Source: Bacillota bacterium (GTDB lineage: Bacteria; Bacillota; Sulfobacillia; Sulfobacillales; Sulfobacillaceae). From it: a stretch of DNA of 45,863 bases. The position numbers were made by a program, and so were the translations under genes. This document shows positions 15,350 through 43,193 of this stretch, piece by piece. The DNA lies in contig JAMCVM010000216.1 in the NCBI GenBank assembly GCA_023475835.1, positions 1 through 45,863 on the forward strand, in the 5' to 3' direction. Position 1 is the stretch's first letter; each line of letters starts with the position of its first letter. The notes below the pieces were generated by a model. The model ran no database searches. It had not been told where the DNA came from and saw nothing but the letters and a program-made list of their open reading frames with translations.

Positions 15350-17403
15350 ACGAAGAGGAGCGTTGGCATCGCCCGATCACGTCGGTGAGCGGAATAGGGC
15401 CTAAACGGGCCGAAGCTCTAGCTAAACTCGGGGTGAACCAATTGGGCGATTTGGTGGAACTGTGGCCGCGAAGGCACCGCGATCGAACCAGGACCACGCC
15501 CATCCGCGACCTGATTGAAGGGGGAACGTATACCATCGTCGGGCGTGTTCGCCAAGCTAGCTTCAATCAGGGCACGGGCAAACGCCCAACCTTAAGAGTG
15601 CTGCTGGACGATGGCAGCGGGACGATCTCGTTGATCTTTTTTAATGCCGGTTGGCTGGCTAAGAAGATCCAGCCCGGCAACCGTTTGGCGGCTAGCGGTA
15701 CGGTCGAACGGTTTGGCCGGGGGCTGACCATGTCGCATCCTGATATTGAGCACTTAGCCGAGGAGCAAATGCCTGAACTCGGTCTCATTCCCATCTATCC
15801 GCTGACTGCCGAAATCAGTCAGCGCTGGATGTCGGATTTGATGAAGCGCGAGTTGCCCACACTTCTGCCGGAGGCGACCGAACCGTTGCCGGAGTCGGTC
15901 CGAAGCCAATATTCCTTGCCGGAACGGACTTGGGCGCTTCGTCATCAGCATTTTCCGGAGAACGGGGACCAATTGGAAGCATCCCGTCGGCGTTTGGTGT
16001 TTGATGAGTTTTTTCGGATTGGCCTCGCGGTCCATTGGCTTTCGGGACGCACGCAAGAGGCCAGCGGATGGATCCAAAGGCCTGACGGGGTGTTGGCTCA
16101 AAAGTTCGTGGCGAGTCTGCCGTTTCAAATGACGGCCGGCCAAAAGACAGCGTGGAGTGAAATTGCCGAAGATCTGGCCCAACCACGGCCGATGGCGCGA
16201 TTGTTGCAAGGCGATGTGGGTAGTGGAAAAACCGTAGTGGCTGTTTTGTCGCTGCTGGCCGCCGTCGATGGCGGCCACCAAGCTGCGTTTATGGCACCTA
16301 CCGAACTGTTGTGCGAACAGCACTATCAAGTCTTGGTCCGCTACCTGGAGCCTGTCGGAGTCCGGGTGGGTTTGCTGACCGGCCAGACGGGCTCTCGGCA
16401 GAATTTGCGCCGCGATCTCGAACGGCATCAAATTGATGTCGCCGTGGGCACGCAGGCGCTCTTGTCGGATCAGGTCGCTTTCGATGACTTAAGTGTCGTA
16501 GTGGTGGATGAACAGCATCGGTTTGGTGTTCGTCAACGGGCTCGGTTATCTGGTAAAGCACAAGCGCCTGATGTTTTGGTGATGACGGCCACGCCGATTC
16601 CCCGCACCATGGCCTTAACGGTATTTGGCGATTTAGAGGTGTCTCAAATCCACGGGTCGCCGCCGGGCCGTTCGCCGATTACCACCATCCATCTGCCCTA
16701 TCGTGAACGCAAACAAGCCTACCAGGCAGTGCTGAAGGCGGTACGAGCCGGCGGGAGAGCGTACGTGGTATGCCCGTTGGTGAATGAGAATCCCGAACTT
16801 GAGCTCCACGGGGCGGTGGAATTGGCAGAAGGCATGAAAAGCATGGGGGGATGGCAGGTCGGCTTGGTGCATGGGCAGCTGACTATGGAGGAAAAGACCC
16901 AGGTCATGCAGGCCTTCCGAGAGGGTACGGTGAACGTGTTGGTGGCGACCAGCATCATCGAGGTGGGAGTCGATGTGCCCGAGGCCACCGTCATCGTTAT
17001 TGAGAACGCGGAGAGATTTGGCATTGCCCAATTGCATCAATTGCGCGGGCGAGTTGGCCGCGGGACCGAACCCTCCACCTGCTTTTTGCTGTCGGATCCG
17101 CGTACAGAAGAGGGCAAAGAACGGCTGAAGGCGTTAGTGGAACACCAAGATGGATTGACTTTGGCCGAGCTGGATTTGGCGATTCGAGGTCCTGGAGAAG
17201 TTTTGGGATTGCGTCAACACGGGGTGAGCGGCTTTCAACTGGCACGTCCGCTGACCGACCTGGCAATTTTAGAGGAAGCGCGACGAGCGGCACGGCGGCT
17301 CTTGGCGGAAGATCCCGAGCTGTTAGATCCCAAACACCAAGCTTTGAAGCTCTGGATGTTGGATGCGATTGAAGAAAATGCCGTGCAACAAGTGCTGAGC
17401 TAA
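15271..17403 (+). CDS. recG: ATP-dependent DNA helicase RecG
   Basis: RecG reverses stalled forks and branch-migrates Holliday junctions. The wedge/OB region is followed by the helicase core: Walker A GDVGSGKT near 314, DEQHRFG near 413, TATPIPRT near 439, VHGQLTMEEK and RGRVGRGTEPS. GTG 15271 has a strong GGCGGAGGAGG site eight bases upstream and gives 710 residues; the first ~25 are Ser/Gly/Arg-rich and may be a variable extension. This start overlaps the end of fakA by 79 bases in another frame. The usual next genes in Bacillus (fapR, plsX) are not found; synteny breaks after the following acetyltransferase. Confidence 0.95.
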   Translation: MGGSSRRSGGQGETSRGPARANRSRVDEEERWHRPITSVSGIGPKRAEALAKLGVNQLGDLVELWPRRHRDRTRTTPIRDLIEGGTYTIVGRVRQASFNQGTGKRPTLRVLLDDGSGTISLIFFNAGWLAKKIQPGNRLAASGTVERFGRGLTMSHPDIEHLAEEQMPELGLIPIYPLTAEISQRWMSDLMKRELPTLLPEATEPLPESVRSQYSLPERTWALRHQHFPENGDQLEASRRRLVFDEFFRIGLAVHWLSGRTQEASGWIQRPDGVLAQKFVASLPFQMTAGQKTAWSEIAEDLAQPRPMARLLQGDVGSGKTVVAVLSLLAAVDGGHQAAFMAPTELLCEQHYQVLVRYLEPVGVRVGLLTGQTGSRQNLRRDLERHQIDVAVGTQALLSDQVAFDDLSVVVVDEQHRFGVRQRARLSGKAQAPDVLVMTATPIPRTMALTVFGDLEVSQIHGSPPGRSPITTIHLPYRERKQAYQAVLKAVRAGGRAYVVCPLVNENPELELHGAVELAEGMKSMGGWQVGLVHGQLTMEEKTQVMQAFREGTVNVLVATSIIEVGVDVPEATVIVIENAERFGIAQLHQLRGRVGRGTEPSTCFLLSDPRTEEGKERLKALVEHQDGLTLAELDLAIRGPGEVLGLRQHGVSGFQLARPLTDLAILEEARRAARRLLAEDPELLDPKHQALKLWMLDAIEENAVQQVLS

Positions 17404-17437
17404 CTCGAAAATGGTGGGATGGTCGGGGAGGAATTCC

Positions 17438-17989
17438 ATGTTTAGCCTGCGCGTCGACGATGAGAGCGAATTGATTTTGGTGACTACGGCCGATGCCGAC
17501 GCCTTATTCGCGGTGGTGCGGCAATCGCGGGGCTACCTTAAACGATGGCTGGGGTGGGTGGAAAATCTGACAGTGGATGGATACCGGGACTTTCTCCGCC
17601 AGGGTGTTGTCCGATTCGGCGAGGGATTAGGCTTTTATGCCGCTATCCGCCGCGACCAACAGTGGGTGGGTGCCATAGAGCTAAGGATCGATAGTGCCAA
17701 TCTATCCGCATCACTCGGCTATTGGCTGGCAGAAGCCTCGCAGGGTCAAGGCCTCATGACCCGCGCGGCAAGGACGGTGACGCGCTTGGCATTTACGGAA
17801 TACGGCTTAAATCGTCTGGAAATACGCGTGGCGGACGAAAACCGACCGAGTATGGCCGTCGCCGAGCGCCTCGGGTTTCGCCTAGAAGGTGTGCTCCATC
17901 AAGGTGAATGGGTCAATGATCGATTTCACAATGTGCTGTGCTATGGCCTCCTCGCTGCGGAGTGGAGGGATATTGAAGCCGGACGCTGA
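17438..17989 (+). CDS. GNAT N-acetyltransferase, RimJ/RimL-YdaF type
   Basis: The 183-residue protein is a RimL-like GNAT enzyme that would acetylate a protein N-terminus or a small substrate with acetyl-CoA. Typical features are WVENLTVDGYRDF, SLGYWLAEASQGQGLMTRAA (acetyl-CoA binding loop), GLNRLEIRVADENRPSMAVAERLGF and the C-terminal LEGVLHQGEWVNDRFHNVLCYGLL. ATG 17438 follows GGGGAGGAATTCC. It starts 34 bases after recG and probably shares its transcript. The substrate cannot be assigned from sequence. Confidence 0.88.
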   Translation: MFSLRVDDESELILVTTADADALFAVVRQSRGYLKRWLGWVENLTVDGYRDFLRQGVVRFGEGLGFYAAIRRDQQWVGAIELRIDSANLSASLGYWLAEASQGQGLMTRAARTVTRLAFTEYGLNRLEIRVADENRPSMAVAERLGFRLEGVLHQGEWVNDRFHNVLCYGLLAAEWRDIEAGR

Positions 17990-18232
17990 GCGATGATGAC
18001 GCCGTTTCGACAGGGCGTGTAGAGAGCGCCTTAGAGACCTGGTGCATAAGTCCCAAAACACCGGATCGAAAACCCTGAAACCCGCGGGGTTGTGAGCGCT
18101 GAAAGATGATTTTTCGGGTTTCGCACCAAGCCCCTTAGACCGTAGGGCCACGCGAACGCAACCGAAGCCGATAGCAAGGAACCGTATACATGCGGTTAAC
18201 CCGGCTTTTTTGAAGAAAGCAGCGTAAAAATG

Positions 18233-18255
18233 GGCACTTTTTTAAAAAAAGTGCC
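18233..18255. repeat. Perfect palindrome GGCAC(T6)/(A7)GTGCC, terminator-like
   Basis: The arms 18233-18243 and 18245-18255 are exact inverted complements: GGCAC followed by six T, then A-rich and GTGCC. It lies about 245 bases after the GNAT gene in otherwise gene-free sequence. The almost absent loop makes it an unusual intrinsic terminator; a cruciform, protein site or IS end is equally possible. The 17990-18232 stretch shows no gene. Confidence 0.4.
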
Positions 18256-19247
18256 GTTGTGGGGCATTTCCCTCTGAACGCCAACGCCCATTTAGGCTAT
18301 CATCGGGCTTATGGACGGACATCAGGGGCGCTAAGGGCAACCGAATCGGCCACGGCTAATGCGGGAGGGACTTCAAGCGGGTGCGTCGGTATTCGGATCG
18401 CGCTGCATTGGATGCTCGGCTGGGGGTCTTGTAACGGAAGTCTTGTGAAGTCTCGCTTTTTGGCCGCTGAAGCCTCGATTGACGTGACCGTTTTGAACCC
18501 CATCTCTTTTCAGCCCTGGCCGAATGGATGGGCAGGTTGTCTCTGGGCATTCATTCGGCCAGTCCTAGCCTGAAAGGCTGTATCTCATGGAAACGTTGCT
18601 TTCATTGACGATTTCCCGAACGGTCCGAACGTCCAGTGGATACGATCAGGATGGTGGTAGGGATCTTGAGTCTTGGTAAGTATTTAGGTATTCCCATCGC
18701 AACGGTTGGGCTCCGGTCAGCGGTACGAATTTTGGCTCTTGCGCATCGACTGATGTTGGTGCCGACTGGTAGGTCACTTTGGTAGCACACGGAGGCTTCC
18801 GTTCGGTGTGGTGCTGGAACGCATTGGTTCGGCCTTGGATATATACTGCCCGCGGGTCGAATTTAATGGTTTGATACCAAGGCTGTGCGTGTCTCAGCAC
18901 CTTGCTGCATAATGGTTTTCCACCACGATGGCATTCTTCCAAAAACCGCAAACTATGACCCGCGCGCAGTATACACCCTTCCAATGTTTCTTTAAGCCAA
19001 GACTCCTTAAACAAACAAGAACCCGGTGTGTGGGCGTCCATCAGTCGCTGCGCAAGAGCCCGAAATTTTCGGTATGTTCCGCGTGGCAAAGGGCACCGTC
19101 GATTAGGGATGGGGTCGGCCCTCCCTAATCGGCGGTGTTGGGTGGGACTGCGCTATGGCTTTAACGGTCAATTAGGTGCATGATGGACGTCGGTCATATA
19201 GTGTCAGAAGCTGGCTCTCTCGACGAAATCTCTGTGGAGGGGTTTGG
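18256..19247. other. Gene-poor stretch with no recognised product
   Basis: Nearly 1 kb without a gene I can support. One open frame on the minus strand (18646-19089, 147 codons) has segments such as HAQPWYQTIKFDPRAVYIQG that read like protein, but I recognise no family and see no good ribosome site. Together with the IS debris that follows it is most simply decayed mobile DNA. No tRNA, CRISPR or clear repeats were seen. Confidence 0.4.
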
Positions 19248-19763
19248 ATGGGCCGATGGGTCGACAAATTAAATGCGCTGGGACTGGGCTTCGTGTTAAG
19301 CGGCGCTACGGGGTATTGCTTGGCTTTGTTTGGTGTTGGACGTTTGGTGGGAGGGCTCATGCTCGTGGGGGTGTTCATCACCTGGGGCACCCTTTCGGTC
19401 TGGGTTCATCCGTTGCCAGGTCATCGCTGGTTTGTGGCGATTTCTTCCGAGTCTAAGCCTTCGGGGTTCTCTCCGGCAATCCGCCGGATTCTTCGTGTGG
19501 GCAGTGTGGCTGAACTGTGCGCTTATCGAGATACGGTGTTCAATGCTGCTCAGGTGTGGGGTCGCTGGAATAAGAGAAACGTCCAATGGACCAGTGTCGT
19601 CGCGTTAGCGGTGGTTTTCAATGTGAGCAGTATCATCAAGGGAAAAGTGCCATTCACCGACATGAATTCGTTGATCGTGGCTGGTTTCGGTGTGCTTTTG
19701 CAGTTTTTCAGTGAACTTTGGTTGTTCCGTCGAATTCAGTACGTACGCGAAACAGTGGCATAA
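19248..19763 (+). CDS. Uncharacterised integral membrane protein
   Basis: I do not recognise the family. The 171-residue protein has a short N-terminal charged segment (MGRWVDKLNA), then two hydrophobic segments (about 10-30 and 33-55), a cytosolic-like middle region of about 60 residues with charged and aromatic residues, and two more hydrophobic segments (about 117-133 and 145-163). ATG 19248 follows GTGGAGGGG by six bases, a good site, so it is probably a real gene rather than debris. It stands alone: gene-free DNA lies before it, and a dead IS1595 copy abuts its 3' end about 30 bases after the stop. No function can be given. Confidence 0.65.
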   Translation: MGRWVDKLNALGLGFVLSGATGYCLALFGVGRLVGGLMLVGVFITWGTLSVWVHPLPGHRWFVAISSESKPSGFSPAIRRILRVGSVAELCAYRDTVFNAAQVWGRWNKRNVQWTSVVALAVVFNVSSIIKGKVPFTDMNSLIVAGFGVLLQFFSELWLFRRIQYVRETVA

Positions 19764-19792
19764 TTAAACTACTATCAAACCGAACTGGTGAG

Positions 19793-20251
19793 AAGATGCG
19801 TTGAGATCACGACTCAAGGTCACTCGATGGTCCGCGGGATGGGCTTTGGCCCCCGCGGCATCGACCGCGGCTCCATCGCTCCACCAGAATCCCCACCACC
19901 ACCGGATCTTGGTCGGTTCCCGGTCCTTGTTTCCCTGGGCCATCCTTGGACGACGCCCAGGACTTTGACTCTTGCGGCCAACAGAGGTATCGTCGCGTTT
20001 TACCAACCCCGCTAACTGAACCTTGGGATTGCGATCGGCCATCGCGCGTTGAATGTGATGATGCATACCCCAGGCCGTGGCGTCCTGCAAGCGGCGTTCT
20101 CGGCTGAAGACTAGCGCCGATTTCCCACCCTTATCCATGGCCAGGAACAACATCGCGAGAAGCCCGATCCGCAAAGCCACTTTGGTATGCTGAAACATGG
20201 TGCCGACAGTCAGAGATGCTTGACGACCACAAGTGTTGTATTCATACAAAG
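19793..20251 (-). pseudogene. IS1595-family transposase remnant, copy 1
   Basis: On the minus strand this segment encodes the zinc-ribbon end and start of the catalytic region of an IS1595 (ISXO2-like) transposase: CGRQASLTVGTMFQHTK, then AMDKGGKSALVFSRERRLQDATAWGMHHHIQRAM and a degraded DETYVGGK-like segment. It is nearly identical to copy 2 at 26.6 kb but lacks about 109 internal bases, and it shares with copy 2 a reading-frame shift near ACCAAGATCCGG. The N-terminal start and C-terminal third are missing. No terminal inverted repeats are visible at either edge. The element cannot encode an active enzyme. Confidence 0.8.
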
Positions 20252-20482
20252 GCAGGGTTCGGCCGATCCGTTGCACGGTGTACGATACTGGCCGCAGGTC
20301 GAAGTTTTCATTTTACAAGAACGACCTACTGGTTGGGACCCTTATTTAGCAGGGTGTGGGGACGAACAAGGCTTTGGTCGCAAACCGGGACATTTGATCC
20401 GCGTGCAGTATGCTTGGTCCCCTGACACTTGGAACACACAAATCCCTTCGGCCACCCTTGGATTATCAAATGCGCCGTAAAA

Positions 20483-20503
20483 CCCCTAGCTTTAGCTATG
20501 GGG
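20483..20503. repeat. Hairpin resembling an IS200/IS605-type end
   Basis: The 21-base hairpin pairs CCCC with GGGG and TAGC with GCTA around a TTTA loop, with a single unpaired T. The surrounding text (AAAAC before, ATATAAGG after) resembles the subterminal hairpins that Y1 transposases of IS200/IS605 elements recognise. No TnpA or TnpB frame is recognisable next to it, so it would be an orphan end. It lies between two other IS remnants. Confidence 0.35.
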
Positions 20504-20589
20504 ATATAAGGCGCTCGCCGTCAAGCGAAGGGTTGTCGTCTCCGAGAAGCTCCGGCCTTGCTTGCGCCAGTGGCGAAGCCCATCCCTCG

Positions 20590-21219
20590 ACTCTGAAAGC
20601 CGCCCGGGTCTTGACCGGCGACAAGGGGTACGACCGTCGGTCCCTGGTCACTGAACTTTGGGAGACCAACCGGATGAAACCCGTCATCGATAGCCGGACT
20701 CTGTGGAAGGATGGGGAGATTCGCCATGGGCTACCAGGCCAGGCCAACGTCACGTACGACTATAAGGGGTCGTCGCATGGGATGACCCAGCCACGGGGAT
20801 CCACCGGACGATGGCCAACGGGGGCGTCGAACAAGATTGGTCGACGCCCAAAAAGGTGTGTCCGGTGGACGTCTCGGGGGGCGTCTTCGAAGGTGCTGAG
20901 GAGTGCCCCGTCAAGCATCCGCTTCGGATAAAGTGAGACACCGATCGCCGGATTTTCACGCCGATCGACCCGGCGAGCTACCGGTGGCAGTCAGGACTAT
21001 CAAGCTCGCACTGCGGTGGAACGAGTTAATCGCTGGCTAGAAGTGTCCTTGGGATTCGAATTGCATACGATTCGGGGCCTCAAGAAAATGCGGTGGCGAT
21101 GTGGGTGGGCCCTGGTGGTTATGTTGGTTATGGCGCTAACTTTCTCCTCCATAACCGAAGACCTATTCGCATTCAAACCGGCGTCCGAGATGTTGAAGCG
21201 TTCGTCGAATATTGAGTAG
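20590..21219 (+). pseudogene. IS4-type DDE transposase remnant
   Basis: The C-terminal half of a DDE transposase is readable over at least two frames. The first part has LTGDKGYDRRSLVTELW (second catalytic Asp region) and VTYDYKG; after a frame change comes RTAVERVNRWL (catalytic Glu region) and FELHTIRGLKKMRWRCG, ending in hydrophobic residues. The N-terminal half with the first Asp is missing. Frame breaks lie near 20800-21000. Its 3' end overlaps the end of the opposing ISAs1 fragment, so one element probably inserted into or recombined with the other. Confidence 0.75.
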
Positions 21220-21726
21220 CTTCATCCGTCGGATCAAGCCGTTGGTGGCATTGCGCGGCGTTGCTCTGACTTGCGGACCGCATTTGGTTCGGACTTGGGG
21301 CCGGTCTTCATCATAAGCCATGGGCCGGACGTAATGCAGGCGGATTTCAATTCCCCAGTGCCCTCGCACATGCCTCCCGATCCGTTTAGTCGAGTCCTTT
21401 TTCGGGGGTGATGGTCGGGGGCTATAGTCGTCCAACTCGACGGCCGCGATCACTTCGTACAACGGGGGGTGATTCATTTTGACTTCACTGATGTGGTCAG
21501 CCTGTTTGTCTTCGACAAGAAACCGCGCGGTCTCGGTTTGGGTATGGAGGGCATCGATGGTCCCGACATTGCCGACAATGTCCAAGGGATCGAGCAAATC
21601 TTTAATCATGGGGATCTCATTGGTGTCAAGTCCCAAGTTATTTGATCGTAGAAGTCTCGCTTTACGTGACCGTCCCATCCTGAACGGACGATACAACGCC
21701 ACGTTTGCTCCGTTCCAAGAAGTCAT
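21163..21726 (-). pseudogene. ISAs1-family transposase remnant
   Basis: The minus-strand frame matches the ISAs1 transposase core: TNEIPMIKDLLDPLDIVGN, TIDALHTQTETARFLVEDKQAD, then HVRGHWGIEIRLHYVR, YDEDRPQVRTKCGPQV and RNATNGLIRRMKLLNI. The segment between VELDD and HVRGHWGIE is much shorter than in intact members, and the N-terminal DGK-type region is absent, so it is an internally deleted, truncated copy. It runs towards the IS4-type remnant and overlaps its end. Confidence 0.8.
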
Positions 21727-22136
21727 TATGGACTGTTTAGAACACGCCCCGACGCGGCATAAAGCTCAACTAGATAGTGTCCTGACGTTAAACGTTCAGC
21801 TGGTCAAGTCAGCTGTCTAAACCGTCCATGGTACCCCGCGAGGCGTAGAGATCCGAGGTGACTTGCGCCTTAAACGTCGGAGTAGGGGTGTTCATCGCGC
21901 ATCTCCATGGCAACACGTAAGGGCCTTTCAGATTGTCTGAATGACTGGGTCTACTATGCATTGGTTGAGTCCCGTTCCCCAAACACACGGATAGCGACTA
22001 TCCACGCGACCTCAGTATTCCATTAAGGTTACGATCGAGACCTTTGGTCCCTACGATTAGGCCCTTACGGACCTAGCAAATAATTATGTCAAAACCGAAA
22101 CTTAATGATAATTGAGAAAGGAGAGTGACATATTCC
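21727..22136. other. Intergenic leader region of the 2-oxoacid oxidoreductase operon
   Basis: No gene is seen in these 410 bases. Two inverted 11-base arms occur at 21916-21926 (CGTAAGGGCCT) and 22059-22069 (AGGCCCTTACG). They could be a remnant of mobile DNA or a long-range regulatory element before the operon. The A+T-rich end (22071-22124) probably holds the operon promoter, but no clear -35/-10 pair was found; TGATAAT near 22105 is a possible -10. An AAAGGAGA ribosome site is at 22117-22124. Confidence 0.4.
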
Positions 22137-23879
22137 ATGGATGGCTCCACTGTGGGTTGGAAGGATGCCTGTGATGGTTTTCGAGCTTCGGCAAGTCACG
22201 GGTCCGACGCTATTGTAGAGTCTCGATTTGAAGATTTGAAACCTCCTTTAGACCCTGGTAGAGCGCCTTACGAAGCGGAGAGGTGCTTATATTGCGGCGG
22301 GAATGGCGCTCCCGCGCCGTGCACGGCGGCCTGTCCAGCCTCCGTCGATGTGCCGGCTTTTATCCGCTCCATTGCCAAGGGGCAGTTGGCTCGGGCCGCG
22401 GAGATTATCCTTCGGGACAATCCATTAGGAGGGTCCTGTGGTCGTGTTTGCCCCACGGAAGAGTTATGCGAAGGCGCTTGCGTTCTCGTATCACAATCCA
22501 GGCGGCCAGTGCATATTGGACGTTTGCAGCGCTACGCGACCGATGCCGGTTTCTTCAGCGAGGGAATAGAGGCTTCCTCGGTGGCCGTTCTCCGAACTTC
22601 GGGACTTAAAGTTGCCGTGATAGGGGCCGGCCCAGCTGGAATGGCGTGCGCTAGTCAATTGGCTACATGGGGCTACAAAGTGACGGTTTATGATTCGCGT
22701 CCCGAGCCTGGCGGCTTAATTCGATTTGCGATTGCGCCATATCGTTTGGTCCAGTCGCCCTTGACAGAGGAAATGCAACGCATCCAGCGTTTAGGAGTGA
22801 AATTTCACTTCAACCACCCCATTTTAGGCCCGGACGCGGTTCGAAGCTTGGAGGGTGCAGCCGACGCCGTTTTTTTGGGCGTGGGATTAGGAGAAGACCT
22901 GGTCGTGCACTACCCCGGGGATGACCTCCCCGGAGTGTGGGAGTCGTTAACATTCATCGAACGCCTGAAGACCGGCCGCTCCCCTGCCGTGGGGCACCGC
23001 GTAGCCGTCATTGGGGGAGGAAACACCGCGATTGACGTCGCCCGTGAATCTCTCCGTCTCGGTGCTGAAGAAGTCACCATAGTTTATCGCCGTACCAAGG
23101 AAGAGATGCCAGCCTATCACCAGGAGGTGACCGACGCTGAACGAGAAGGTGTGAGATTCCTGTGGCTTGCTGCGCCCGTACGGTTCATCGGAGAAACACG
23201 GCTAGAGTCCATCCAATGTCAACATATGCGGCTTGGCAATGAGGACGAATCGGGCCGACGGAAACCAGAACCTGTTTTGGGAAGCGAGTTTATGTTACCC
23301 GTCGACACCGTGATTCGAGCGATGGGACAACGTCATCGTACTGAATGGCACGATTGGATCTCAGACCTAAACCTCACACACGGTTTGATTGAGGTGAATC
23401 CCCAAACCCTTCAAACGTCCAATGCCAAATATTTTGCGGGGGGAGATGCCGTTAATGGTGGAGCCACAGTGGTGGATGCGGTTGCGATGGGAAAGGCGGC
23501 TGCACGAGGGATCCGCGCATATTTGCAGCCGAACAAGGTGGAAATCCCCCAATTCAATTCCTACGTAGCGTCAGAGTCCAACGAATTGGCGGATCAGATG
23601 GTGTACCACCAGGGAAAGGCCACCCTCTCGGTCGACCGGGATTGGTGTAAGGGGTGCAATATCTGCGTGGAGGATTGTCCCGCGCACATTCTGGCATTGG
23701 ATTATAACGAAAAGGTGTATGTAACCGACATGACACGTTGTATCCTCTGCGGAATTTGTGCAGTCCGTTGTCCTGATTTCGTAATTTCAGTCGCGACCGG
23801 AGATGAAGAAATCAGGAAGTTCAGCCCAGTGACTATGAACTCAGGAGGAAGTCAATATGCGGCTAGTCCAAGGGAATGA
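22137..23879 (+). CDS. GltD/PreT-like NAD(P)H oxidoreductase with C-terminal 2[4Fe-4S] ferredoxin domain
   Basis: This 580-residue flavoprotein would pass electrons between NAD(P)H and the 2-oxoacid oxidoreductase subunits encoded next to it. Domains in order: N-terminal iron-sulfur region with CLYCGG, CTAACP and CGRVCPTEELCEGAC (about 50-115); an FAD-binding fold (GAGPAGMACA, about 162; GGLIRFAI); an NAD(P)-binding fold (GGGNTAIDVARE, about 291); and a ferredoxin domain (CKGCNICVEDCP and CILCGICAVRCP, about 503-545). It resembles the glutamate synthase small subunit, but no large subunit gltB is present. The ferredoxin part looks like a KorD/PorD delta subunit fused to it. ATG 22137 is used; GTG 22125 sits on the ribosome site. 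It overlaps the next gene by 23 bases. Confidence 0.85.
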   Translation: MDGSTVGWKDACDGFRASASHGSDAIVESRFEDLKPPLDPGRAPYEAERCLYCGGNGAPAPCTAACPASVDVPAFIRSIAKGQLARAAEIILRDNPLGGSCGRVCPTEELCEGACVLVSQSRRPVHIGRLQRYATDAGFFSEGIEASSVAVLRTSGLKVAVIGAGPAGMACASQLATWGYKVTVYDSRPEPGGLIRFAIAPYRLVQSPLTEEMQRIQRLGVKFHFNHPILGPDAVRSLEGAADAVFLGVGLGEDLVVHYPGDDLPGVWESLTFIERLKTGRSPAVGHRVAVIGGGNTAIDVARESLRLGAEEVTIVYRRTKEEMPAYHQEVTDAEREGVRFLWLAAPVRFIGETRLESIQCQHMRLGNEDESGRRKPEPVLGSEFMLPVDTVIRAMGQRHRTEWHDWISDLNLTHGLIEVNPQTLQTSNAKYFAGGDAVNGGATVVDAVAMGKAAARGIRAYLQPNKVEIPQFNSYVASESNELADQMVYHQGKATLSVDRDWCKGCNICVEDCPAHILALDYNEKVYVTDMTRCILCGICAVRCPDFVISVATGDEEIRKFSPVTMNSGGSQYAASPRE

Positions 23880-24999
23880 AGCAGTCGTTTTGGGGGCGTT
23901 AGCCGCCGGCTGCAATTTTTATGCTGGATATCCGATTACGCCGGCCACAGAGATTATGGAACAAATGGCTCGGATGCTTCCCGGACGGGGTGGAGTATTT
24001 ATTCAAATGGAGGATGAATTGGCCGCCTTGGGGGCGGTGATTGGAGCCACTTGGGGTGGTATGCGGGCTATGACTGCGACGTCAGGGCCCGGATTTTCGT
24101 TAATGCAAGAGCACATTGGCTATGCCGCGATGACACAAACACCCTGCGTCGTGGTCGACTCACAACGGATTGGCCCTTCAACGGGACAACCGACCATGCC
24201 AGCGCAGGGTGATGTCATGCAGGCTCGCTGGGGTTCCCATGGCGATCGACCTGCGATTGTGGTGACCGCATCATCGGTCAAGGACGTCTATGACATGACC
24301 CAACAAAGCTTTACTTGGGCTTTTACCTATCGGTTACCCGTCGTCTTGCTTTTGGATGCCGTATTGTCTCACATGCGTGAAAACATCGAGTTGCCTGCTG
24401 TCTCTCCGCCGTCTCTCCCTACTTCCGCTGACTCCGCCGACTCCGAGGACCCTTATAAGCCGTTTGGGAACCATCCCTTTGTTCCTTTTAGTGCAAACAC
24501 GCGGACGATAGTCAGTGGGTTAGCACACGATGAAACTGGGAACACGCGCGGGGCGGTCGGGCCAGCCAGTGAGCAAATTCTTCGTGATTCGCTTTCTCAT
24601 CTAGACGAAGACTATCAAAAGATAACTCGGCATCGGAATTATAGGCTCGAGGATGCGCAATGGCTCATCATCAGTTATGGCATCACAGCGCGAGCGGCAC
24701 GGGCCGCTGTCGACATATTGCGCGAAAGTGGCGTACGAGCGGGCCTTTTGGAACTTATGACACTGTGGCCTTTTCCAGAACTTATCGTCAAGTCCATAGC
24801 CCGACATGTCCAAGGAATTCTTTTACCTGAATTAAATTTGGGGCAACTGGTTTTGCCTCTTAGGGCCGCGGTGGGAGGACTTTGCCCCGTCGCCGGATTG
24901 GGAAGAGCCGATGGCGAACTGTTTACTCCCGAAGCCATCGCACAAGCCATGATATCGCATAGTCGCAAGATCGAAAGGAGGGTGTCGCATCATGCCTAA
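23857..24999 (+). CDS. korA: 2-oxoacid:ferredoxin oxidoreductase alpha subunit
   Basis: This subunit holds the pyrimidine domain that, with the beta subunit, oxidatively decarboxylates a 2-oxoacid to an acyl-CoA. Family signatures are QGNEAVVLGALAAGCNFYAG followed by YPITPATEIMEQMA, EDELAALGAVIGATWGG, TSGPGFSLM and STGQPTMPAQGDVMQARWGSHGD. At 380 residues it is the stand-alone alpha form, with gamma encoded separately. ATG 23857 has AGGAGGAAG eight bases upstream, inside the previous gene. The sequence fits the KorA/VorA group, so 2-oxoglutarate or a branched-chain oxoacid is more likely than pyruvate, but the substrate is not certain. Confidence 0.88.
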   Translation: MRLVQGNEAVVLGALAAGCNFYAGYPITPATEIMEQMARMLPGRGGVFIQMEDELAALGAVIGATWGGMRAMTATSGPGFSLMQEHIGYAAMTQTPCVVVDSQRIGPSTGQPTMPAQGDVMQARWGSHGDRPAIVVTASSVKDVYDMTQQSFTWAFTYRLPVVLLLDAVLSHMRENIELPAVSPPSLPTSADSADSEDPYKPFGNHPFVPFSANTRTIVSGLAHDETGNTRGAVGPASEQILRDSLSHLDEDYQKITRHRNYRLEDAQWLIISYGITARAARAAVDILRESGVRAGLLELMTLWPFPELIVKSIARHVQGILLPELNLGQLVLPLRAAVGGLCPVAGLGRADGELFTPEAIAQAMISHSRKIERRVSHHA

Positions 25000-25825
25000 C
25001 GTTGGAAACGATTTACATCCATACCTACGGCATCAGATGATGCCTACGGTTTGGTGTCCCGGATGCGGACACGGCAACATTGCACGGGCCATTGCTACTT
25101 CTTTGGAACGTCTCGAACTGGATTTGGGGCACGTGGTAGTGCTGGGTGGCATCGGCTGTTCAGGTCGCACCCCCTTTTATTTTAACACCAACGCCATGCA
25201 TACCACACACGGGCGAGTTCTGGCCTTCGCTACCGGACTGAAGCTGGCCAATCCATCGCTCACAGTGATTGTGGCCATGGGTGACGGGGATGCCTTAGCG
25301 ATTGGAGCAGGTCACTTTATTCACGCAGCACGGAGGAATATTGATTTGACGGTTGTTTTGTACAACAATAGCATATACGGTATGACCGGTGGCCAACAGG
25401 CACCGACCACACCTCGTTCGTTTCGGTCCACTACATCGCCCTTTGGCGGTATCGAACCCGCCTTCGACGCAGTCGACCTAGCGTTAGCTGCAGGGGCGAC
25501 GTACGTGGCAAGAACAACCACCTTTGACTTTGCTGAAATGCCCGAATATATTTCGGGCGGTATTCGTCATCCAGGATTCGCGATGATAGAAATTTTAAGT
25601 CAGTGCCCGACGTACTTTGGAAGACTCAACCAATTAGGCGATGCGCCCGAGATGATTGAGTATCAACGCAATCACACGGTGATGGCGGGTGACGAGAGTC
25701 AGATCGGCCGTGACGACTTGTTGGGCAATCTTCCTGTCGGGATATTCCGCCAGGAAATTCGTCCCGAGTATACCCATCAATATGCCGAACTTAGCCAAGC
25801 ACAGGGGGGAGATTACCGTGCATAA
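24992..25825 (+). CDS. korB: 2-oxoacid:ferredoxin oxidoreductase beta subunit (thiamine diphosphate)
   Basis: The beta subunit binds thiamine diphosphate and an iron-sulfur cluster. CPGCGHGN near residue 23 is the conserved cysteine motif. MGDGDALAIGAGHFIHAARRN followed by LYNNSIYGMTGGQ is the thiamine diphosphate/Mg motif (GDGD...NN...YGMTGGQ). The end (SQCPTYFGR, YQRNHTV) is typical of KorB. ATG 24992 overlaps korA by eight bases and has AAAGGAGGG upstream. At 277 residues it has normal length. Expression is almost certainly coupled within the four-gene operon. Confidence 0.9.
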   Translation: MPNVGNDLHPYLRHQMMPTVWCPGCGHGNIARAIATSLERLELDLGHVVVLGGIGCSGRTPFYFNTNAMHTTHGRVLAFATGLKLANPSLTVIVAMGDGDALAIGAGHFIHAARRNIDLTVVLYNNSIYGMTGGQQAPTTPRSFRSTTSPFGGIEPAFDAVDLALAAGATYVARTTTFDFAEMPEYISGGIRHPGFAMIEILSQCPTYFGRLNQLGDAPEMIEYQRNHTVMAGDESQIGRDDLLGNLPVGIFRQEIRPEYTHQYAELSQAQGGDYRA

Positions 25826-26378
25826 AGCCGTTCAAACCCCAGACCGTTTGGGTATACGCTTAACTGGACGGGGGGGACAGGGTATTATCCTTTCGGGCGT
25901 GATTATCGCTCAAGCCGCCATGTACGATGGGCGGTTTGTAGTGCATACGCAAAGTTACGGGCCCGAAGCCCGTCTCGGGGCGTCGAAATCCGAAGTGATG
26001 ATCTCTCGTTGGGAAATCGCTTTCCCTGAAGTGGTGTTGGCTGACATTCTGTTGTGCTTGTCACTCGACGCCTATCTCAAGTACGGTTCACAGGTGGCTT
26101 CCAATTCGCTGTCTGTCATTGACGACTTGATTGGTATCACGGCGCCGGCACCGGGCCAAGTGATCTTGCCTTTAAGACGCACAGCTCGGGACTTAGGAAA
26201 CGAGTTGAGCGCAAACATCGTAGGTCTTGGCGCATTGGTTGCAATTACCGAACTCGTGGAAGTCCATCATGTTCAGCAAGCCATTAAAGAACGGGTAAAG
26301 CCGGAGTTTTCTGAGGTCAACCTGAAGGCATTTACGCGAGGACTGGAGCTCGGGGAACAATGGCATGCTTCTGCATGA
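25818..26378 (+). CDS. korC: 2-oxoacid:ferredoxin oxidoreductase gamma subunit
   Basis: The gamma subunit completes the complex and helps bind CoA. The signature GRGGQGIILSGVIIAQAA near the N-terminus, then TQSYGPEARLGASKSEVMIS and ANIVGLGALVAI are diagnostic. GTG 25818 follows AGGGGGGAG by about seven bases and overlaps the korB stop by eight bases; a longer frame back to 25689 lies wholly inside korB. The length is 186 residues. It is the last gene of the operon; no clear terminator follows before the IS remnant. Confidence 0.9.
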   Translation: MHKAVQTPDRLGIRLTGRGGQGIILSGVIIAQAAMYDGRFVVHTQSYGPEARLGASKSEVMISRWEIAFPEVVLADILLCLSLDAYLKYGSQVASNSLSVIDDLIGITAPAPGQVILPLRRTARDLGNELSANIVGLGALVAITELVEVHHVQQAIKERVKPEFSEVNLKAFTRGLELGEQWHASA

Positions 26379-26545
26379 ATTGGTCGATGTTGCATTTTGG
26401 TGGGGATTGCAGTTTTTGGGGGAGTTGCTCCGATAATTGAGGTGGAAGTTCGTGGCCCAGTCAAATAGGTAGGGTTCGCTATTCCCGGAAGCGATGTAAG
26501 TCATGTAAATTTTTGGTATACAAATAGAGAGACGGTTCGAGTGAT

Positions 26546-27356
26546 CCGGTCGTCGTCGACGAATTTGCCTTGTATGAATGCAGCAGGTGTGGTCGTCAAG
26601 CATCTCTGACTGTCGGCACCATGTTTCAGCATACCAAAGTGGCTTTGCGGATCGGGCTTCTCGCGATGTTGTTCCTGGCCATGGATAAGGGTGGGAAATC
26701 GGCGCTAGTCTTCAGCCGAGAACGCCGCTTGCAGGACGCCACGGCCTGGGGTATGCATCATCACATTCAACGCGCGATGGCCGATCGCAATCCCAAGGTT
26801 CAGTTAGCGGGGTTGGTAAAACGCGACGATGCCTCTGTTGGCCGCAAGAGTCAAAGTCCTGGGCGTCGTCCAAGGATGGCCCAGGGAAATAAGGACCGGG
26901 AACCGACCAAGATCCGGTGGGGGTGGGGATCAGGGTGAACGAACAGGGACATCCGCCGCATGCATTGTTGGAAGTTGTGGCGAATTTCAAGCAAGAAACG
27001 GTGCTAGAAGTCCTCAAACGGCGCATGGATCAGGCAGGGGTCTGGTGGAGCGATGCATCCGCGGTCGATGCCGCGGGGGCCACAGCTCATCCCGCGGATC
27101 ATCGAGTGACCTTGAGTCGTGATCTCAACGCATCTTAAGTGTTTCATTGGATGAATACGCTCATTAGTCTCGCGACAACCGTTATCGATGGCACCTATCA
27201 CGGGCGCGGACGACCCTCGGAAGTCCCCGACGGCAACGGTGTTTGGAAGCGTTGACGGATCGATTTAATCGTCGGTACCTGGGAACCCGGGTCGCCGACC
27301 GCTTACGGATGGCGTGTGTGACGCGTCCACCGCATTCGTACGCCAGATCGTGCGAC
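26546..27356 (+). pseudogene. IS1595-family transposase remnant, copy 2
   Basis: The longer of two copies, here on the plus strand. Readable parts: VVVDEFALYECSRCGRQASLTVGTMF and the AMDKGGKSALVFSRERRL segment in one frame; GVGIRVNEQGHPPHALLEVVANFKQETV and a DDE-like region after a frame shift near 26910; then DGTYHG and LTDRFNRRYLGTRVADRL near the end, again in shifted frames. The first zinc-ribbon half is missing and stops interrupt the rest. It is inverted relative to copy 1 and lies directly after the 2-oxoacid oxidoreductase operon. The stretch 26379-26545 holds nothing else recognised. Confidence 0.8.
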
Positions 27357-27883
27357 AAAGCCGTTGCCGGTGAGGCCACCGAAATCGCCTATTCAGGATA
27401 AAATGAGGTTCGCAAGGTCGTCATGCTTGGAGATGAGGGGCTTATGGTCTCCTTTTGCGTCTTCCAAACCACTGGACCACCGAATTGCCTGCGGCCTGTC
27501 CCTCGTACGACGCTTCGGCCGATCTCATCACCTCCTGAATCCTAGTGGTATGACACGTCGTACCAACGTCCCACGCAAAATCAGTCGGATCGGCGCATTG
27601 GCTTAAAGGGCATACGCTTCCGTAAAGAAAGCGGGGGGAGACTCATCCCTACAACCTGACTGATCTGAGGGTGCATGTCCGTGGAGCCTCACCGGGAGGA
27701 GGCGAACCCCGGATGTTGCGGAATATTCTGGTAAATAGCCGGCCGTTCGTGTGGCTATGGTGTGTTTTTTACCCCTCAAAAGGCTCGGAGAGAAGGCGGT
27801 CACCTTCGTTCCGGCGATGTCGGACCGCACGCCACCCCGTTGCTCTGGACCGGACCAGATGCCGTGGAGCCCCTCTACGAAGC
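27357..27883. other. Gene-free stretch after IS1595 copy 2
   Basis: I see no supportable gene. Short open frames on both strands lack ribosome sites and family motifs. A plus-strand segment near 27640-27900 (GASPGGGEPRMLRNILVNSR) might be transposase debris but no family can be named. Confidence 0.4.
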
Positions 27884-28486
27884 TTATTTTCCGTTGCGGA
27901 TATCGTCTAGAGTCTCAAGAGCATAGACAATTTCACTGAACGAGGCAGCGCAGGCTGCCCCGATGGGAGATTGCACCGAAAATCCAGGCCTGACCGGATC
28001 GGTGCCACCTAAAGCAAAATAACGGACCAGGTTCCACCATTGACCATCAAGAGAGTAGTGAAAGGCAAATGTCTTGCCGACTTTTGAGACTCGTAAATAA
28101 ACCGAATTTCCTTCGATGGCGGTGGAGTTGCAATCGTCGGAGGTGCCTCGAGTAACGACCGAGACAATGGTCGGTTGACCCTGAGCAGAGTATTCGAAGC
28201 ACAGCTTGGCCCACAGGTCGTCGGTAACCTGGATGTGGAGCGTGCCGGCATCGTACTTCTCTTGGAAATGGACCGTTACTTTCGCACGGAGCAAGAAGTC
28301 TTGGCTCATCGGTTCGAACAACGCACATGGGGCATTCCGTTTGATCGACAACCCAGACGGATCCAAGAACCAATCTTCGGCGGGGCCTGAGACCATCGTA
28401 AGGGCAGCCGAACCTGTCTCCCATGACTGGGGACGATTTTTCCAAGAGAGCTCGCGGTCTAAAAGGTCAATACGAAATCGTTCCAA
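27884..28486 (-). CDS. DUF1349 family protein (concanavalin-like lectin/glucanase fold)
   Basis: The 200-residue protein matches the DUF1349 layout: an early SAALTMVSGPAEDWFLDPSG, then APCALFEPMSQDFLLRAKVTVHFQEKYDAGTLHIQVTDDLWAKLCFEYSAQ-type strands, and a final EGNSVYLRVSKVGKTFAFHYSLDGQWWNLVRYFALG. This fold often binds carbohydrate; the enzymatic role is unknown. The start is TTG 28486, nine bases after a perfect AGGAGG (28496-28501); an in-frame ATG at 28504 overlaps that site. The gene appears intact although surrounded by debris. It is the only complete minus-strand gene in this zone. Confidence 0.8.
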   Translation of the reverse strand: MERFRIDLLDRELSWKNRPQSWETGSAALTMVSGPAEDWFLDPSGLSIKRNAPCALFEPMSQDFLLRAKVTVHFQEKYDAGTLHIQVTDDLWAKLCFEYSAQGQPTIVSVVTRGTSDDCNSTAIEGNSVYLRVSKVGKTFAFHYSLDGQWWNLVRYFALGGTDPVRPGFSVQSPIGAACAASFSEIVYALETLDDIRNGK

Positions 28487-29336
28487 ATTTCTATGCCTCC
28501 TCATCGAAGTCACTGAACGGACCGGCCACCGAAAGCTGGCCGGAGATGGCAGGGCGGCGAGCCGCATACCTTTCGCCCAGCCCCACGGTTAAGACTGGCT
28601 AAAGTGTATGGAAGGAGCGGAGGGTTGTCAATCCGACGGCGAGGGTTTAGACGAGGCCGATAGAACGAACCGACCCGGTGTTCCGCGCTCCACGGCATCA
28701 CAGGAATCGATATCGTACCGACTTTCTGCGAAGAGATCAGTTCCTGCCATGCTAGCTCGGCTCATCTGGTCCAAAGATGCTGCCAGGCAGAATCTATCGG
28801 AACGCAAGATTTTTGCAAGTGTTGCAGAGGCTCATGGGAGTCGAGAATGCCATACATCCTGTATGCCATCTATATATTCGCCACCAAAGAATTGAAACGT
28901 ACTCCTTGATCAAGAGGGCTATGGCACTCAAACCTGATCGGTGCCAGTATCAGATCGTTAATGCCGAGTATATCAATCCCCAACGCCAAAGGCCATATCG
29001 AAGAGAGTGCGTAAGCACCAGAAAATCATCCGGTGCGTCCACCACTGCCGGAGCCAGGGTCTTGCGAATGGGCCGTCAGCCCCTGCGAGGTTTCGTCGAT
29101 GGTGGCCTGCGAACCGTAAGGCTGTTGGCTCAACTCGCGACATTTCGTCCTAGTGTGCGCCCGGTGACGGCGCACAGGGCATTGGGACGCCGAACAAGCC
29201 ACCGCCGGAGCAGGTCGTGGCTGAAGAACGAAGGCGTCCTTTAATCCCCGTCTGAATCTGGTTGATGACCGCCTTTAAAGAAACGGTTTTAACTCGACGG
29301 GGCGATGAAACGAGGGTTCTTAGGCGGCATGACGTA
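28487..29336. other. Region upstream of the trp promoter, no recognised gene
   Basis: About 850 bases without a supportable gene. A plus-strand frame at 28777-29244 (155 codons, Arg-rich at its end) has no recognisable domain and is probably transposase debris or chance. The minus-strand DUF1349 gene promoter should lie just after 28501. Confidence 0.4.
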
Positions 29337-42402: not shown

Positions 42403-42800
42403 GCGTCAGAATACTGGAAGGTGGCCCGAAGGAACAGCTGTTTTACCGGCGATACGCGCTGAACCGCCGAGATCCGGGGCCGCCAACATCATCAAACGTT
42501 AGCGCTAGCGAACAAGCAATTGATTGGACAATCCTCAACCTGAAAACATTGCGATCCACCCTACACCCTTATCTGGGTCGGAGAGCACACTCAGTGCTTA
42601 CTCGAACCGTTCTTGCCGAGTGGTACCGCTCGACACCCAACGAAAGCAACCGTACTACGTCAAATGCGTCTTGGTTCATAAGGAACTCGGGGGCGTATGC
42701 GCATCAGGAGTTTTTCTCTTGGGGTCATGAGGACTGGTTTGATTGCGACGGCTCCGTCCTGATCTTCTATACTACACCAAAGAGAAAGGGGGACCTCAGC

Positions 42801-43193
42801 ATGAGTGTTCCGGCCGACGAAGTGTACCAGGTCATCGAGCAGTTGTCGTCGTGTGATCGAAAGACAGTGTACGACCTGGCCCAATTCCTTCTCGCCCGCC
42901 ATCAGACCGCGGGCAAGGCCTGGAGCGACATCGAGACACAAGAACCGGATTTCGAACCATTGAGCCCGGAGCAAGCTGATCAGTTGCGGGACCCCAAGTT
43001 TGTATCCTGGATCCAGACAGGCACTATGGCGTATGAGGTTCGCATTAGACGGTCTGCGCTCAATTACCTCAACAAATTAGAGGTGAACCCATCGGCGTCT
43101 CGAGGCTGCCATCGAGGGGCTTGCGGAAGTTCCGCCTGCGGGAGACATTCGCCCACTGGCAGGGCAGGCCGGTGCGTATCGGTTGCGGGTTAG
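42801..43193 (+). CDS. Antitoxin-like protein running on into the toxin N-terminus
   Basis: ATG 42801 follows AAAGGGGGACCTCAGC. The first ~75 residues (MSVPADEVYQVIEQLSS, then FLLARHQ, and an acidic DIETQEPDFEPLSPEQADQL) look like a small type II antitoxin: a helical N-terminal part and an acidic linker. No stop separates it from MAYEVRIRRSALNYLNKL, the start of the RelE-type toxin at 43026, so the two are read as one 130-residue chain that then enters a wrong frame (SRGCHRGACG). Normal modules have two separate overlapping genes; the fusion and frameshift suggest a decayed module. Confidence 0.6.
   Translation: MSVPADEVYQVIEQLSSCDRKTVYDLAQFLLARHQTAGKAWSDIETQEPDFEPLSPEQADQLRDPKFVSWIQTGTMAYEVRIRRSALNYLNKLEVNPSASRGCHRGACGSSACGRHSPTGRAGRCVSVAG

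Follow-up and report, generated by a model that had tools for sequence, protein, structure and literature searches.

A 2-oxoacid:acceptor oxidoreductase operon with a fused PreT-like flavoprotein-ferredoxin subunit and its proposed coupling to NADP(H)

Introduction

Enzymes of the 2-oxoacid:ferredoxin oxidoreductase (OFOR) group normally depend on a free ferredoxin or flavodoxin. Phenylglyoxylate:NAD+ oxidoreductase (PMC5109826), with the subunits PadEFGHI, is a characterised OFOR that reduces a nicotinamide directly, and the POR-FldA-FqrB system of Helicobacter pylori couples 2-oxoacid oxidation reversibly to NADPH (PMC7084853). Here we describe a four-gene operon from a Bacillota bacterium of the class Sulfobacillia, in which the genes of a KorABC-type enzyme follow that of a flavoprotein fused to a ferredoxin domain. 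It lies in a 45,863-nucleotide stretch of DNA, contig JAMCVM010000216.1 of assembly GCA_023475835.1, which is called the window below. The clade of enzymes to which it belongs appears to have a built-in NADP(H) port. No report of a bacterial NADP(H)-linked 2-oxoglutarate oxidoreductase of such make-up was found in the open-access literature, subscription papers being outside the search.

We propose, with fair confidence, that the operon encodes an NADP(H)-linked, coenzyme A (CoA)-acylating KorABC-type 2-oxoacid:acceptor oxidoreductase, with 2-oxoglutarate as the likeliest substrate and with the KorD/OorD subunit fused to a flavoprotein of the PreT/dihydropyrimidine dehydrogenase (DPD) type. 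We infer that the chains form a single complex, and likewise its electron path, its substrate, its preference for NADP rather than NAD and an oxidative direction. A preliminary description of the locus had suggested direct coupling to NAD(P)H instead of to free ferredoxin; such coupling of 2-oxoacid and NAD(P)H by the complex is well supported by the conserved synteny, the changes in fusion state, the clade-wide co-inheritance and the linkage to Pnt genes described below.

The four-gene operon

The operon occupies positions 22137-26378 of the plus strand and consists of four overlapping genes, which encode a flavoprotein-ferredoxin fusion (P1), KorA, KorB and KorC (Table 1). The overlap is 23 bp between P1 and korA and 8 bp between korA and korB. 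Pfam matches and alignment bear out the preliminary description in placing an FAD/NAD(P)H module, N-terminal Fe-S clusters and a 2[4Fe-4S] ferredoxin in the one chain whose gene overlaps korA, with Fer4_20 at residues 34-141, Pyr_redox_2 at 162-456 and the 2[4Fe-4S] domain at about 502-555. The start at ATG 22137 is favoured, as it lines up with the homologue starts; GTG 22125 is a possible start, from which P1 would be 584 residues long. OorD of a solved 2-oxoglutarate:acceptor oxidoreductase (8ys5_D) matches P1 residues 501-570, and the C-terminal domain is therefore read as the usual delta subunit joined to a reductase.

KorA matches POR_N (E 1.4e-65) and PFOR_II in Pfam and has solved relatives in 1yd7, 8ys5_A and 6n2n. 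The conserved cysteines are present in the alignment of KorB with the OorB-type beta subunit 8ys5_C. The korC gene probably starts at GTG 25818, within the 3' end of korB, with the purine-rich AGGGGGGAGA just ahead of it. The predicted products show the alpha (POR_N and domain II), beta (thiamine pyrophosphate (TPP)/[4Fe-4S]) and gamma (POR) subunits of a KorABC-type 2-oxoacid:acceptor oxidoreductase, and the P1 C-terminal domain would supply the 2[4Fe-4S] delta module (KorD/OorD).

Conserved gene order and linkage to transhydrogenase genes

KorA was surveyed in 154 genomes of the class and the homologues were divided into a close set, at 58-81% identity, and a distant set at 51% or less, in which a few short partial matches reach 55-57%. 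The order flavoprotein, ferredoxin, korA, korB, korC is found in 22 of 22 examined KorA loci of the close set, 21 of them beyond the window, with a contig end falling inside the flavoprotein gene in two. The gene-order search in other genomes that the preliminary description had proposed thus finds that the order is not unique, and its recurrence at these other loci excludes chance. No such flavoprotein was found at the distant-set KorA loci that were read. Because the genome collection was scanned with peptide patterns derived from the window protein, remote phyla are under-sampled.

The flavoprotein and the ferredoxin are fused in families f1 and f170 and encoded by separate adjoining genes in f9, f141 and f161, where the ferredoxin is a protein of 84-99 residues. 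(At one locus, L113, a long N-terminal extension was judged to be an upstream shadow frame.) All 22 flavoprotein-linked KorA sequences form a single clade in the KorA tree with a support of 100. Within it the fused f170 groups with the split f141 and f161, which indicates that the fusion state changed at least two times. Taken together, the comparative evidence that the flavoprotein, the ferredoxin and KorABC would act together is strong.

The split versions, with ferredoxin and flavoprotein as separate proteins, could also be explained if the flavoprotein were a stand-alone NADPH:ferredoxin reductase that merely shares an operon with KorABC, the latter working on soluble ferredoxin. We consider this quite unlikely, given that in two families the ferredoxin domain taking the place of KorD is part of the same chain as the flavoprotein, and that throughout the sampled clade the flavoprotein and KorA are inherited together without exception. 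Nor do the loci imply a distant partner for the GltD-like protein, which the preliminary description had named as a finding that would overturn its proposal.

At 12 of the 21 loci outside the window, the operon is adjoined by genes for the proton-translocating NADH/NADPH transhydrogenase (pntAA-pntAB-pntB, recognised by Pfam). They lie upstream in f9, in f161 and in a single f141 genome, and downstream in f1; this difference in placement between families argues for functional linkage over inherited order. In three f1 loci a gene of the isocitrate/isopropylmalate dehydrogenase family runs divergently from the operon. At four f141/f161 loci (L112, L113, L114 and L115) a pyruvate-type OFOR is encoded directly downstream of the Kor operon, and it might share the same flavoprotein.

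The flavoprotein and its relatives

In an alignment of nine fused homologues, all eight N-terminal and all eight C-terminal cysteines, the glycine motifs for FAD and NADP and a YRR motif are invariant. The YRR motif was taken as a sign of NADP preference in DsrL-2 (PMC7596348). YRR is also common among the other flavoprotein sequences read. Position 135 of P1, equivalent to Glu117 of NfnB, is a glutamine, as it is in every Kor-linked, in-class Por-linked and PreT sequence and in pig DPD (IGGLQQF); the remaining sequences read, including the NfnB-type and GltD, have glutamate.

In the flavoprotein tree, the 26 OFOR-linked proteins of the class (20 Kor-linked and 6 Por-linked) group together in one clade (support 100/100). 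The nearest outside relatives of this clade have genes next to preA (DHO_dh), which identifies them as PreT. By its sequence the P1 flavoprotein is closer to PreT/DPD than to GltD. The earlier label of 'GltD-like' is right for the superfamily, and PreT/DPD-like is the more fitting name.

The structure of P1 was predicted with a pLDDT (predicted local distance difference test score) of 87.1 from a 55-row alignment, a first model from a 9-row alignment having been poor (58.7). The model superimposes on the NfnB/NfnL fold with a Z score of 44.6 and 2.9 Å over 439 aligned residues. However close this match to a bifurcating subunit, NfnL, GltD and DPD are matched about equally well, so that the fold alone cannot pick the P1 family. 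Flavin-based electron bifurcation, raised as a possibility in the preliminary description, would have the FAD send electrons from NADPH partly to a high-potential acceptor and partly to the low-potential ferredoxin domain. Apart from the shared fold it finds no support here and we regard it as extremely unlikely: the four-gene unit contains no NfnS, Etf or Hdr partner, there is a single FAD domain, position 135 has the glutamine of PreT/DPD rather than glutamate, and the non-bifurcating GltD and DPD have an almost identical fold. An NfnS (FNR-like) partner was likewise absent from the conserved neighbours.

In six genomes (L169-L174: G446, G494, G369, G491, G487 and G512) the gene of a related PreT-like flavoprotein stands first in a separate PorC-PorA-PorB set. 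Fused flavoprotein-ferredoxins are also encoded beside pyruvate-type OFOR genes in Chloroflexi (L167, 7397-11808) and Actinobacteria (L168, 7632-12318). These two lie elsewhere in the flavoprotein tree, have glutamate instead of glutamine, and in the alignment lack cysteine at the first two distal ligand positions; they apparently represent a separate recruitment. The Por-type second set and these unrelated recruitments suggest more than one adoption of the module. Matches in plasmid records all lay below 43% identity and covered only the flavoprotein part; most were to proteins named NAD(P)-dependent oxidoreductase.

Proposed reaction, direction and substrate

In the proposed mechanism, KorAB would decarboxylate the 2-oxoacid on TPP with CoA. 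Electrons would then pass in one-electron steps from the [4Fe-4S] cluster of KorB by way of the fused 2[4Fe-4S] domain and then the pair of N-terminal [4Fe-4S] clusters to the FAD, which would deliver them to NADP+ as hydride. The net reaction would be 2-oxoacid + CoA + NADP+ -> acyl-CoA + CO2 + NADPH. The 2-oxoacid couple lies near -500 mV and NADP+/NADPH near -320 mV. The oxidative direction should be favoured because, by these textbook values, the 2-oxoacid couple is lower in potential; reduction could be possible when PntAB keeps NADPH very reduced and CO2 is high.

KorA passes the NCBIfam model PRK08659, for an unspecified 2-oxoacid, with a score of 459.9 against a cut-off of 411. The gene for the 2-oxoglutarate dehydrogenase (OGDH) E1 component (SucA, TIGR00239) is present in 19 of the 22 carriers of the operon and, among the 132 other genomes of the class, in 36 (Fisher p 2e-7, without correction for phylogeny, by which the association is confounded). 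The operon as a simple replacement of OGDH was dropped in view of this positive association.

Several observations weigh against the proposed enzyme. The NCBIfam models specific for 2-oxoglutarate, PRK09627 and PRK09628, score under their cut-offs, and the substrate could therefore instead be a branched-chain oxoacid or pyruvate. Those carriers that already have OGDH E1 would have no evident need for another oxidase of 2-oxoglutarate. In addition, PntB was not found in the genome of the window, a draft of 246 contigs and 96.6% completeness in which it may have fallen in a gap.

The link to the transhydrogenase and the co-existence with OGDH raise the question of direction, namely whether the proton gradient is traded for carboxylation or for NADPH. 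The same complex could work reductively, with highly reduced NADPH maintained by PntAB driving carboxylation of succinyl-CoA or another acyl-CoA and with no free ferredoxin involved. This is consistent with pntAB adjoining the operon in most families, on either side, and with OGDH covering the oxidative direction in most carriers. It is also consistent with the sister Por set, which pairs the same kind of flavoprotein with a pyruvate-type OFOR and which in G491 has pntB on its contig. However, the reductive reaction would be uphill by about 100-180 mV per electron, based on textbook potentials, unless NADPH/NADP+ and CO2 were very high, and the genome of the window has no detectable PntB. We consider reductive operation unlikely but deserving of weight. 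A more specific version, somewhat less likely again, is a ferredoxin-independent 2-oxoglutarate synthase powered by the proton gradient, in which PntAB would supply NADPH to the fused flavoprotein-ferredoxin for carboxylation by KorABC. If true, such a synthase would give OGDH-containing bacteria a CO2-fixing reverse step.

An island flanked by insertion sequences

The operon lies on an island of about 9.5 kb that is absent at the same site from the sister genome G491, whose trpE is 99% identical. Contig C285 of G491 (L196) joins sequence matching window positions 15953-18183 directly to 27689-28868. The degenerate insertion-sequence (IS) copies on the two flanks (Table 1) belong to an element with many copies in the genome of the window, and the G+C content at third codon positions is 0.53-0.55 in the four operon genes and 0.57-0.64 in flanking genes. 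Gain here and loss in G491 are not separable for certain; the IS relics and the composition favour gain.

Table 1. Coordinates of the operon genes and of the surrounding features in the window
Feature	Position	Strand	Basis
P1, PreT/GltD-type flavoprotein (N-terminal 2x[4Fe-4S], FAD, NAD(P)H) with KorD-like 2[4Fe-4S] domain	22137..23879	+	Pfam, alignment, ligand table, structure model, OorD match
korA, 2-oxoacid:acceptor oxidoreductase alpha subunit, YPITP TPP motif	23857..24999	+	POR_N, PFOR_II, NCBIfam
korB, beta subunit, TPP site and one [4Fe-4S]	24992..25825	+	TPP_enzyme_C (Pfam)
korC, gamma subunit, POR domain (Pfam)	25818..26378	+	Start supported by homologue starts
Degenerate IS copy, left flank, inverted relative to right copy	19793..20249	-	Inverted repeats 97% and 95%
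Degenerate IS copy, right flank	26570..27136	+	Inverted repeats; no Pfam match
Operon-bearing island, about 9.5 kb, missing from the corresponding site of G491	18184..27688		G491:C285 junction

An island missing from the sister genome, flanked by IS copies and lower in third-position G+C, may suggest that in this genome the operon is a recent mobile acquisition with little function. We find this very unlikely, as all four reading frames are intact with all cofactor residues retained, and no OFOR alpha subunit other than KorA was found in the genome.

Around the operon there are several degenerate fragments that resemble transposase genes. Next to the right edge of the island a DUF1349 protein is encoded (27884-28567, minus strand), in sequence that is present at the empty site of G491. 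Farther away, a short open reading frame at 42549-43193 has halves that by eye resemble an antitoxin and then the beginning of a RelE-like toxin, and it may represent a toxin-antitoxin pair with a frameshift.

Comparison with known systems

The operon has the alpha, beta and gamma subunits of OorDABC/KorDABC (8ys5, 6n2n) as well as its 2[4Fe-4S] delta module. Here, however, delta is fused to an FAD/NADP flavoprotein, and a separate ferredoxin or flavodoxin acceptor is not expected.

PreT and DPD are the nearest neighbours in the flavoprotein tree and have the same glutamine at the proximal-cluster position. DPD passes NADPH electrons via FAD and the N-terminal clusters to a C-terminal 2[4Fe-4S] domain. 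The PreA (DHO_dh) partner found beside PreT copies is absent from this locus, and the acceptor site would be KorB in place of the FMN site. In NfnAB the proximal cluster has the glutamate ligand of NfnB, whereas P1 has Gln135.

P1 and the GltD of glutamate synthase (GOGAT) are far apart in the tree. The genome of the window has two GltD-family proteins encoded beside gltB, both on other contigs (gltB being shown by Pfam for one). With gltB located there and not at this locus, P1 was rejected as a GOGAT small subunit, in agreement with the preliminary description.

The order of domains in P1 is that of DsrL, an NAD(P)H:acceptor oxidoreductase from dissimilatory sulfur metabolism (N-terminal 2[4Fe-4S], FAD with embedded NAD(P), linker and C-terminal 2[4Fe-4S]), and its YRR is like that of DsrL-2; the authors of the DsrL study noticed OFOR-adjacent genes and set them aside (PMC7596348). 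In contrast to DsrL, P1 retains the first distal cysteine (C54) rather than Ser/Thr, has Gln for Glu at the proximal cluster and adjoins OFOR genes. No dsrA was found in the genome of the window, and none above cut-off in 15 carrier and related genomes. Membership in DsrL was rejected on the lack of dsrA, the ligands and the OFOR context.

The flavodoxin and the reductase of the H. pylori POR-FldA-FqrB system are separate soluble proteins, unlike the fused chain described here. The operon proteins score far under the cut-offs of the PadE, PadG and PadI models (NF045762, NF045764 and NF045766), and PadEFGHI differs in its substrate and its specificity for NAD. With phenylglyoxylate oxidoreductase, NAD-linked relatives have already been characterised, and the operon is a further variant of that known kind.

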